Of a DNA stretch of 64,000 nt, positions 20,094 through 24,000 are shown one piece after another. The notes beneath the pieces were generated by a model, which saw only the letters and a program-made list of their open reading frames with translations, ran no database searches and was not told where the DNA came from. Positions within the stretch are counted from its first letter, which is position 1. Each line of letters opens with the position of its first letter. The position numbers were made by a program, and so were the translations under genes. This stretch comes from Jannaschia faecimaris (GTDB taxonomy: Bacteria > Pseudomonadota > Alphaproteobacteria > Rhodobacterales > Rhodobacteraceae): the NCBI RefSeq assembly GCF_900107415.1, contig NZ_FNPX01000012.1:1-64000 (forward strand), in the 5' to 3' direction.

Positions 20094-20657
20094 TCACTCC
20101 GATCCGCGCGAAAGGGCGGCGACGCCGGTGCGCGCCATCTCGATCAGACCAATTGGACGCATCAGTTCGGCGAAGGCCTCGATTTTGCCGACGTCGCCGG
20201 TGATCTCGAAGACGAAGCTGTCCAGCGTCGAGTCCACAACGTTGGCGCGGAAAATCTCGGCTAGGCGCAGGGCCTCGATCCGCTTGTCCCCGGTTCCTGC
20301 GACCTTGAAGAGCGCCAGTTCGCGTTCCACTGGTTTGCCTTCGACTGTCAGGTCGTGGACGTCGCGGACCGATACGATCCGGCCCAACTGCGCCTTGATC
20401 TGTTCGATCACTTGCGGCGTGCCGACGGTGACGACCGTAATGCGCGAGGTGTGCCCCTCGTGGTCGACTTCGGCGACTGTCAGGCTTTCGATATTGTAGC
20501 CCCGACCAGAAAAAAGGCCGATCACACGCGCAAGAACGCCCGCTTCGTTTTCGACCAGAACGGCCAGAGTGTGCCGTTCCTGAACGTCCGAGAAATTCGG
20601 GCGCAGGTTGTAGGCGGAATGGCTTGTAGAGCCCTTCTTGAGTTTCAGCGCGGACAT
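20094..20657 (-). CDS. ilvH: Acetolactate synthase small (regulatory) subunit
   Basis: This 187-residue protein has an N-terminal ACT domain (HTLAVLVENEAGVLARV then GLFSGRGYNIESLTV) that binds valine for feedback control, followed by the small-subunit C-terminal domain. It activates and regulates the IlvB catalytic subunit encoded at 22058-23812. The two are separated here by a LysE gene and a plus-strand EF-hand gene, so ilvH is probably not governed solely by the ilvB attenuator. Confidence 0.95.
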   Translation of the reverse strand: MSALKLKKGSTSHSAYNLRPNFSDVQERHTLAVLVENEAGVLARVIGLFSGRGYNIESLTVAEVDHEGHTSRITVVTVGTPQVIEQIKAQLGRIVSVRDVHDLTVEGKPVERELALFKVAGTGDKRIEALRLAEIFRANVVDSTLDSFVFEITGDVGKIEAFAELMRPIGLIEMARTGVAALSRGSE

Positions 20658-20936
20658 CCGTCCCTCCCCAATACAGTTGCCCCGTTCTGACGTGTTTTGC
20701 GCGCGATGGAAAGCATCGGCAACAAGGTGCGCACATCGGCGACCTCTGGCCGGTGCAAGCCGGGGGGACGGCGATCCGCCGATCTTTCGGCGCGGATTTG
20801 CCGGTCGCTCGGCGGAGGCAATCCGGAACGGCAGAAACGGGTCGCTGGCGCTGGTCCCGAAGCGTTCTCCCGGTCAGGCAGGGGCTCCGTAGTGCCGACG
20901 GTGGCCGCGCGGAGCAGACCTATGAAAGGAGAGTCC

Positions 20937-21317
20937 ATGATACGATCGGCCCTGGTGTTCGCTGCCTTGACGGTTGCCACCGCGACCTTCGCTACGGCGC
21001 AGGCCAATTGGGACTTGGACGCCGATGCGCGGCTGAACCCCGATGAATTCTTCGATGGTTTCGGCAAATTAGGGACGTTTCGCATCTTTGACCGGAACGG
21101 TGACGCTATGCTGGATGCGTCCGAGTGGCAGAATGGCCCCTGGTTTGTGGGTGAGTACGTCAACATGGATCTGAACGCCGATGGCGGCGTGGACGAGTTG
21201 GAGTTCAACGCGTTGTTGTTCAACCGCTATGACGACAACGGATCGGGCAGGATCGAACCGGCAGAGATCGCAAGGGTCAAAGCGGACCTAGCGAAAGACG
21301 GGCTGCTGGCGCATTAG
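20937..21317 (+). CDS. Exported EF-hand calcium-binding protein
   Basis: This 126-residue protein has a signal peptide (residues 1-20, ending near ATAQA). Three acidic loops resemble EF-hands: DRNGDAMLDASEW, DLNADGGVDELEF and DDNGSGRIEPAEI. The last two have near-canonical 12-residue spacing. It probably binds calcium in the periplasm; the role is unknown. The ATG at 20937 follows AAGGAGA. It is the only plus-strand gene inside the ilv region. Confidence 0.8.
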   Translation: MIRSALVFAALTVATATFATAQANWDLDADARLNPDEFFDGFGKLGTFRIFDRNGDAMLDASEWQNGPWFVGEYVNMDLNADGGVDELEFNALLFNRYDDNGSGRIEPAEIARVKADLAKDGLLAH

Positions 21318-21342
21318 CGTCAGGCACGGCTTTGCATTCGCG

Positions 21343-21957
21343 TCAGCGCGATCCGGTCAGGAGAGCACCGCCGAAAAAGACGAGTGCCGCGCCGAAGGCC
21401 CGCTCCATCGATTTCTTCACCGACAAAAGACCGGCGCGGACCGCCGGGGCCGAGAGCAGCAGCGCGACCGTTGCGAACCAGATGACATGGGCCATCGCGA
21501 TAAAGACACCATACCCCAACTGCGTCATGAGCGGTGTACCGGGCGAGATGACGGTCAGAAACAAAGAGACCACGAAAATCGCCGTCTTGGGGTTCGTCGC
21601 GTTGGTCACAAAGCCCCAGAACATGCCCTGTACCGGGGTCATGGCTGTTCGCCCCCCTTCGGGGATGTCGTTGGTTGCGCCGCGAAATGTGCGGATGCCG
21701 AGCCAGATAAGGTAGGCACCGCCAAGGGTTTTGGCCACGGTAAAGGCCATGGCCGAGCCGGTAAGCAACACGCCCACGCCGATGATCGCCGCCGCGACGT
21801 GGACCGTCAGGCCAAATCCGACACCAAACGCCGTGGCCAGTCCGGTGATCCGGCCCGCGACCAGCGTATTGCGGGATGTAACGATAAAATCGGGGCCGGG
21901 CGAGATGACGGCGAGGCAGGTGATGGCAATCACTGCCAGAAACTCGGGGCTTGGCAT
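21343..21957 (-). CDS. LysE/RhtB family amino-acid exporter
   Basis: This 204-residue inner-membrane protein has about six hydrophobic segments. The family hallmark AVISPGPDFIVTSRN is at the N terminus, and GMFWGFVTNATNPKTAIFV is central. The family exports amino acids such as lysine, homoserine or branched-chain residues. The ATG at 21957 follows AAGGA. It lies 100 bp downstream of ilvB in the same direction, which makes export of an ilv-pathway product possible but unproven. Confidence 0.88.
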   Translation of the reverse strand: MPSPEFLAVIAITCLAVISPGPDFIVTSRNTLVAGRITGLATAFGVGFGLTVHVAAAIIGVGVLLTGSAMAFTVAKTLGGAYLIWLGIRTFRGATNDIPEGGRTAMTPVQGMFWGFVTNATNPKTAIFVVSLFLTVISPGTPLMTQLGYGVFIAMAHVIWFATVALLLSAPAVRAGLLSVKKSMERAFGAALVFFGGALLTGSR

Positions 21958-22057
21958 GGGCGGATCCTTTGTGCGCCTACTGACCATTTGATGCGCCGAT
22001 CAGCAAGCCAAAACGGGCGCACCGAAGCGCGCCCGTCGAATAGTCATGGGATCGCGA

Positions 22058-23844: not shown

Positions 23845-23874
23845 AAAAACCCCCGGAGGTTTCAGCTCCGGGGG
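23845..23874 (-). terminator. ilvB attenuator terminator
   Basis: On the minus strand CCCCCGGAG, a 7-nt loop and CTCCGGGGG form a perfect 9-bp stem followed by TTTTT, 33 bp before the ilvB start codon. The three bases at the foot of its 5' arm are also part of a competing 10-bp pairing with the leader peptide coding region. Confidence 0.85.
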
Positions 23875-23904
23875 CACATGGTTACCGTTATGGTTGCTGA
23901 ATAT

Positions 23905-23949
23905 TCAGCCCATGCACCCTGTTCCGACAATTACGAGAAGCGTGTTCAT
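23905..23949 (-). CDS. ilvB leader peptide (branched-chain attenuator)
   Basis: The 14-codon ORF MNTLLVIVGTGCMG has five consecutive branched-chain codons (Leu-Leu-Val-Ile-Val) and an AAGGA ribosome site. It sits between a good promoter and the attenuator terminator. Codons 11-14 include GGGTGCATGG (complement of 23910-23919), which can pair with CCATGTGCCC (complement of 23872-23881) through 10 bp with two G-U pairs. A ribosome stalled in the Leu/Val/Ile run would leave this segment free. One reaching the stop would cover it and let the terminator form. Confidence 0.8.
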   Translation of the reverse strand: MNTLLVIVGTGCMG

Positions 23950-23972
23950 ATCCGTGTCCTTAGAGGTCACCA

Positions 23973-24000
23973 TCCATACCGCGTCAGGCGGGGGGGTCAA
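23973..24000 (-). promoter_or_regulatory. Predicted ilvB promoter
   Basis: On the minus strand, -35 TTGACC (complement of 23995-24000) and -10 TATGGA (complement of 23973-23978) are separated by 16 bp. The leader peptide start is 24 bp downstream of the -10, leaving room for its ribosome site. Confidence 0.6.

Follow-up and report, generated by a model that had tools for sequence, protein, structure and literature searches.

The 64,000-nt stretch of Jannaschia faecimaris DNA analysed here (the window) carries a gene for the large subunit of acetolactate synthase, preceded on the same strand by a compact attenuator-like element (Table 1). The sequence-only reading of this element had left its strand ungiven; every part that it claimed is there, and all lie on the minus strand. 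The leader ORF (DNA ATGAACACGCTTCTCGTAATTGTCGGAACAGGGTGCATGGGCTGA) translates to the proposed 14-residue peptide with five consecutive branched-chain amino acid (BCAA) codons, and a second ATG lies upstream in the same frame. The proposed terminator has a 9-bp stem that includes one A-U pair (23874..23866 with 23858..23850), followed by five T (23849..23845). The competing helix, P1, pairs GGGTGCATGG with CCATGTGCCC over 10 bp, two of them G-U as described, and has 3 nt (23874..23872) in common with the terminator stem. The claimed promoter fared less evenly: both hexamers and their spacing are present, and 77 of 78 regions, the window's among them (best 80 of 589 loci), have TTGAC 20–100 nt 5′ of the leader, the single miss being L017, whose leader start was set too far upstream; the –10 hexamer is poor, however, with 3/6 matches to TATAAT, and a plain consensus promoter scan of the window did not detect TTGACC-16-TATGGA.

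Table 1. Features of the acetolactate synthase locus and its upstream element in the window.
Feature	Position	Strand	Basis or remark
Whole attenuator-like element	23845..24000	minus	5′ of ilvB/ilvI
Putative promoter TTGACC-16 nt-TATGGA	23973..24000	minus	read from sequence
Putative –35 TTGACC	24000..23995	minus	
Putative –10 TATGGA	23978..23973	minus	
Leader ORF, 14 codons + TGA, MNTLLVIVGTGCMG	23949..23905	minus	AAGGA upstream
Regulatory codons CTT CTC GTA ATT GTC (Leu Leu Val Ile Val)	23926..23940	minus	
P1 5′ strand (antiterminator), GGGTGCATGG	23919..23910	minus	pairs with 23881..23872
P2 stop-codon hairpin GCTGA-ATAT-TCAGC	23909..23896	minus	leader stop inside
P3 small hairpin ACC-AUAAC-GGU	23884..23894	minus	
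P1 3′ strand, CCATGTGCCC	23881..23872	minus	
Intrinsic terminator CCCCCGGAG-loop-CTCCGGGGG-TTTTT	23845..23874	minus	found by terminator scan
ilvB/ilvI, acetolactate synthase large subunit, 584 aa	22058..23812	minus	Pfam TPP_enzyme_N/M/C, relatives
LysE-type exporter, 70 nt after ilvB	21343..21987	minus	Pfam LysE
ilvH/ilvN, acetolactate synthase small subunit, apart from ilvB here	20094..20657	minus	Pfam ALS_ss_C, ACT

The LysE-type exporter may belong to the same attenuated transcript as ilvB. Together with an opposite-strand gene for an EF-hand protein, it occupies the interval between ilvB and ilvH (20645-21987). By tblastn, neither of these two genes was found in the flanks (up to 3 kb, some shorter) of the best 80 of 589 relatives, and ilvH was present in 76 of the same 80.

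The upstream regions of ilvB relatives provide an opportunity to assess conservation of the element. These relatives are the best 80 of 589 confirmed ilvB loci from a named genome collection, 79–86% identical, most of the records being titled as Rhodobacteraceae or one of its genera. Upstream of 77 of the 80 lies a leader with four or more Leu, Val or Ile among six consecutive codons; the remaining three are L022, whose contig starts in the leader, L056, whose leader by eye has fewer BCAA codons, and L050 (Nereida sp. MMG025), in which no such leader or terminator was seen by eye upstream of 3001. L050 carries a promoter-like TTGACG close to ilvB. A typical relative's leader is MTSLVVIVGHTRMGR, ending in the codons CGC ATG GGC; these pair with CCCATGCGC, a stretch that enters the terminator GCCCCCG..CGGGGGC. 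Across 80 rows (the window plus the loci without L050), a P1 of 7–11 bp formed by the last leader codons and overlapping the terminator by 1–5 nt was found in 75, with an overlap of 2 nt in 42 rows and 3 nt in 30; L064, L069, L079 and L084 did not fit, and L022 is cut off and so not judgeable. The small overlap, which the sequence-only reading had regarded with concern, is therefore no local defect, 2–3 nt being the family norm (72/80 rows), although the concern stands insofar as the calculated competition is weak (see below). Under a strict rule, leader, terminator and antiterminator occurred together in 63 of 80 real upstream regions (the window plus 79 loci, the incomplete L022 being left out) compared to 0 of 2000 dinucleotide shuffles, and the leader alone in 68/80 compared to 18/2000. 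Most homologous regions have thus retained all three elements, BCAA leader, competing stem and terminator, which argues for the attenuation originally proposed.

Model searches extended this picture within the family. Model R1, trained on ilvB leaders, matches 20/20 genomes of the window's genus, the window's own being in the training set, and, among 248 family genomes, model R2 matches 207 at E ≤ 1e-5 under strict filters. Neighbours were checked for the 29 best-scoring newly fetched family loci, all with ilvB directly downstream, and for the first matches of the six genomes with two matches (L209, L235-L239), ilvB being adjacent in 6/6; some of the weaker matches among the 207 may not be ilvB leaders. 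Three second matches (L242, L244 and L245; 31.8–36.4 bits) have neither ilvB nor the transporter described below in the flanks examined, and family matches near these scores are therefore unreliable. A second R1 match in the window's own genome (L088, E 1.37) was taken as chance.

Given 20 genus sequences and no structure, RNAalifold predicts a three-way junction of P1, P2 and P3 followed by the terminator, with a P1 core of GCAUGG pairing with CCAUGC/U. In this genus structure 96.0% of cells are paired, compared to 91.5 in shuffles, and 28 pair cells are changed on both sides, compared to 11.3 ± 3.0 in shuffles, none of 500 reaching as many; slid structures reach at most 4. Most of this covariation lies in P2 (GCUGA/UCAGC versus GUCGC/GCGAC), so that the palindrome noted earlier over the leader stop, and suggested there as a possible pause hairpin, appears as a conserved hairpin. 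P3 covaries at one pair (A-U/G-C/U-G) and by eye is not universal outside the genus. The six core pairs of P1 hardly vary in the genus, and genus covariation therefore says little about P1. The wider family alignment A1 comprises 79 sequences, being the 80 loci plus the window minus L022 and L050 (in which the element is truncated and missing, respectively). P1 pairing here reaches 92.0%, with both sides changed in 4 pairs (5/790 cells), the terminator is paired in 99.5% of cells, and P2 is 92.8% paired, mostly as CCG-GUAA or GUGA-CGG, where the loop contains the stop codon. Since family P2 likewise encloses the stop codon, the window palindrome can be read as the window's version of P2. Alignment of relatives, which had been suggested as a check, thus shows leader and stems kept and pairs covarying, but with thin covariation in the competing stem itself; overall, covariation supports the three-way junction. 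The A1 consensus also contains a further ATGCG right after the T-run (e.g. L009 ~2966-2971), repeating part of the P1 3′ strand; it comes too late for any effect on termination.

The codons of the BCAA run are mostly rare ones. In the runs of 79 leaders, GTA makes up 52% of Val codons compared to 4% in the ilvB genes of the same loci, CTA 38% of Leu codons compared to 2%, and ATT 47% of Ile codons compared to 14%; that codon choice can sharpen attenuation is a published idea. Spacing is also regular, the Met of the RMG codons being placed five codons after the last BCAA codon in 59 of 75 measurable leaders (79 examined). With the usual footprint, a ribosome waiting at a BCAA codon ahead of the last one would leave sufficient P1 5′ strand exposed, and a ribosome at the stop codon would cover that strand. 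The five-codon spacing fits attenuation because it matches this footprint.

From sequence and comparison, we therefore regard it as quite probable that the element controls the acetolactate synthase gene by ribosome-mediated transcription attenuation, as an RNA switch that probably turns ilvB on when ribosomes stall for lack of Val, Leu or Ile. The leader ORF, its codon run, P1, P2, P3 and the terminator are present and conserved; the following sequence of events is proposed. When the leader is read through, the ribosome at the stop codon would cover the P1 5′ strand and P2, and because these are hidden the terminator would form, ending transcription ~32 nt before ilvB. A stall at any of the five Leu/Val/Ile codons except the last would leave enough of the P1 5′ strand free for P1, together with P2 and P3, to close the three-way junction while the 3′ arm of the terminator has yet to be made. 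Closed P1 would then hold the 2–3 basal terminator nucleotides next to the U-run, allowing RNA polymerase to continue. The rare codons in the run should give sensitivity to small drops in charged tRNA. Folding of the window alone predicts a weak upstream hairpin and no convincing protector (1:2) hairpin, and a wholly untranslated leader should therefore also allow readthrough.

Antitermination is the weak step of this scheme, given the overlap of 2–3 nt and a modest calculated competition. Using standard parameters, without polymerase or kinetics, the equilibrium probability of the basal terminator pairs was calculated as 0.997–0.999 with the ribosome at the stop codon. With P1 free it fell to a median of 0.785 for the 79 family sequences, 0.587 for the 20 genus sequences, and 0.845 for the window in the genus alignment; the latter alignment was used because the window's row in A1 gives 0.0, a register artefact of its longer terminator, and the family median includes that row. 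Freeing only the GCATGG part of P1 had no predicted effect (0.997–0.999), in keeping with a requirement that stalling occur upstream of the last BCAA codon. The calculated competition is thus in the right direction but modest at equilibrium, and the scheme would need a further contribution from the order of cotranscriptional folding or from steric effects.

Attenuators of the E. coli trp and ilv operons combine a run of regulatory codons, a stalled ribosome, and a choice between antiterminator and terminator. The window element has such a codon run and is proposed to share the other two features; it differs in showing no clear 1:2 protector hairpin, in an overlap of 2–3 nt only, and in having the antiterminator strand inside the last codons of the leader.

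A related leader was found in front of a different gene. Searching 385 alphaproteobacterial genomes with R1, which was trained only on ilvB leaders, returned matches in 16 at E ≤ 0.001: five in the window's family (its own included), all before ilvB, and 11 outside it (E 1.9e-6 to 9.8e-15), all directly before a transporter by tblastn. This transporter is assigned to Bcr/CflA efflux by NCBIfam, with three of four tested proteins above the cut-off and the fourth scoring 199.9 against 200.9. Its leaders are Val-rich (e.g. MNPKSVVVVVSRRCMVR) and by eye end in P1-forming codons and a similar stop hairpin. Such a leader was seen by eye before 12 of the 17 close transporter orthologues (at least 48%) in these genomes, with five lacking it, and before none of 13 more distant transporters (35–43% identical, L151-L163). 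Conversely, scanning upstream of ilvB in the 11 outside genomes for BCAA-leader ORFs gave no plausible leader, and R2 scored only 15.3 bits there in one (L123).

R2, trained on alignment A3 (45 rows: 9 of the 20 genus sequences, 24 other ilvB leaders and 12 transporter leaders), gave 17 matches of at least 35.9 bits over the 385 genomes (5 ilvB, 12 transporter), the next one scoring 29.2 bits. Matches at E ≤ 0.01 occurred in 101 of the 385, and scores under 29.2 bits were treated as noise even though E values there reach down to 1.9e-5; five weak matches (L181, L182 and L183 from this search, L202 and L204 from that of the order of G148) showed neither a transporter nor a leader of this type. 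The 35.9-bit transporter match, in G107, was accepted because Rfam's Atu_C8 model finds it independently. In the order of G148, eight further strong R2 matches (at least 54 bits) all precede the transporter. In G658 and G500, both of the window's family, the element occurs twice, once upstream of ilvB and once upstream of the transporter, the second copy in G500 scoring just 35.3 bits. The transporter and its leader (57–68 bits) are also found on plasmids of Roseobacter denitrificans (pTB1), Phaeobacter piscinae and Leisingera caerulea, all three typed conjugative by PLSDB, and on a Burkholderia cenocepacia replicon (66.3 bits); 16 plasmid records had a blastn match to L150, of which eight were examined. 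Among 88 BCAA codons in 22 transporter leaders, 63 are Val, with GTA accounting for 24% of Val codons compared to 4% in the gene, and one leader, L141, has a single Val. From these counts, and from L141, Val sensing by transporter leaders is less sure than BCAA sensing before ilvB. At another locus, on Agrobacterium tumefaciens plasmid pAt2, a TPP riboswitch (74.6 bits; L255 424-540) lies before a transporter orthologue (52% identical), and no attenuator was found there, which hints at a metabolite as the cargo of some of these 'drug' transporters.

The Rfam family Atu_C8 (RF02502, 'Rhizobiales sRNA') links the two settings. It matches transporter leader L150 at 98.8 bits, leaders before acetolactate synthase in Sinorhizobium meliloti (L258, 121.1 bits) and Shinella (L259, 113.8 bits), and a leader before the transporter in Rhizobium gallicum (L257, 110.9 bits). 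All 14 loci examined above the gathering threshold of 50 bits (L246, L257-L264, L266-L270) stand before ilvI/ilvB (2) or a Bcr/CflA-type transporter (12); a 15th, L265, scored below threshold and precedes neither. Over the 385 genomes, Atu_C8 exceeded the threshold in a single genome and, at E ≤ 0.001, gave sub-threshold matches in four more. Of these four matches, two are ilvB leaders: G252, in the window's family, scores 32.2 bits at its ilvB leader, exactly where R1 matched, and G189, in another family, has the leader MSLLIVPCAPNEGLA (by eye) before an ilvB that is 69% identical. Since R2 does not find the G189 leader (L247), its kinship is read from the Atu_C8 model by itself. The matches in G092 and G275, the remaining two of the four, seem unrelated. 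In the window itself, Atu_C8 gave no match at gathering score or at E up to 10. Atu_C8 nevertheless resembles the window element in having an ORF, a P1 helix that encloses a stop-codon hairpin and a third hairpin, and then a terminator; the genus consensus has the architecture that Rfam draws for Atu_C8, with the stop codon in a hairpin loop. Its ORF is Val-rich and its enclosing helix is GCGCAUGGG:CCCAUGCGC; it differs from the window element in hairpin sequences and in a P1 that stops short of the terminator.

Having been trained on both kinds of leader, R2 is not independent evidence for their kinship; R1, built from ilvB leaders only, and Atu_C8 are. From these sequence comparisons we infer that ilvB/ilvI leaders and transporter leaders share descent. 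We further favour, with some reserve, the view that two unrelated genes, those for acetolactate synthase and a Bcr/CflA-type transporter, have come to share or exchange a single attenuator module in many families of alphaproteobacteria, on roseobacter plasmids typed conjugative, and in Burkholderia, and that Atu_C8 is the same module. Its Leu/Val/Ile codons would read amino acid shortage, and the Val-rich transporter leader would read valine shortage or an unfinished leader (e.g. under translation inhibitors).

Attenuation could also hold without P1 stealing terminator bases. The P1/P2/P3 junction might instead act as a pause or a bulky upstream structure, keeping polymerase and ribosome in step or hindering the hairpin in the exit channel. 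The overlap of just 2–3 nt in most rows, the weak calculated competition and the concentration of covariation in P2 are all compatible with such a role, and the same junction stands apart from the terminator in Atu_C8 relatives, which is a point against base-stealing. However, the overlap itself is kept in 75/80 rows of ilvB relatives (best 80 of 589), and we consider this variant possible but unlikely.

Explanations in which attenuation is secondary or absent fare worse. Rfam files the related Atu_C8 as an sRNA, and PMC10117765 describes rnTrpL as a dual-function attenuator RNA, so the terminated leader might act mainly in trans as a small RNA, as is reported for the Sinorhizobium trp attenuator RNA. 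We judge this highly improbable, because the conserved parts are those needed by attenuation and the strong matches checked stand before ilvB or one transporter type. A structured, conserved three-way junction might also belong to a leader that binds a metabolite or protein and contains an ORF by chance. Yet Rfam at gathering score matched only five tRNAs in the window and no riboswitch, and at E up to 10 gave no convincing riboswitch or other match; with the BCAA run kept and its codon bias strong, we give such a leader hardly any credence.

Ribosome-mediated attenuation of acetolactate synthase genes has precedents in this class. PMC1273637 names an 'ilvB leader peptide' of alphaproteobacteria and, for S. 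meliloti, PMC2573895 includes an 'ilvIH cis regulatory' element, both citing Vitreschak 2004, while PMC4117421, citing Tarleton 1994, describes a BCAA leader, a rho-independent terminator and attenuation for Caulobacter ilvBN. The Caulobacter ilvBN and Sinorhizobium ilvIH systems share with the window a BCAA leader and terminator before an acetolactate synthase operon; in the S. meliloti leader found in this analysis (L258), P1 stands apart from the terminator, whereas in the window it reaches into the terminator foot. With such attenuators in print, the kind, gene and class are known, and the doubt about novelty voiced in the sequence-only reading was justified. A further Rhodobacterales candidate, a uORF attenuator before cysS, is described in PMC8632094. 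Among the open literature listed, judged by title or abstract start, no paper dealt with a Rhodobacteraceae ilvB leader or with leader attenuation of a Bcr/CflA transporter. The module shared by ilvB and the transporter is the more novel part, compared to the window element itself.

Overall, the analysis provides a covariation-supported model of the likely control of BCAA synthesis in roseobacters and their relatives, together with a natural case for asking how little overlap an antiterminator needs. By tying Atu_C8 to ilvI and a transporter, it makes the role of that RNA testable, and it suggests a possible regulatory input for a multidrug-type transporter.
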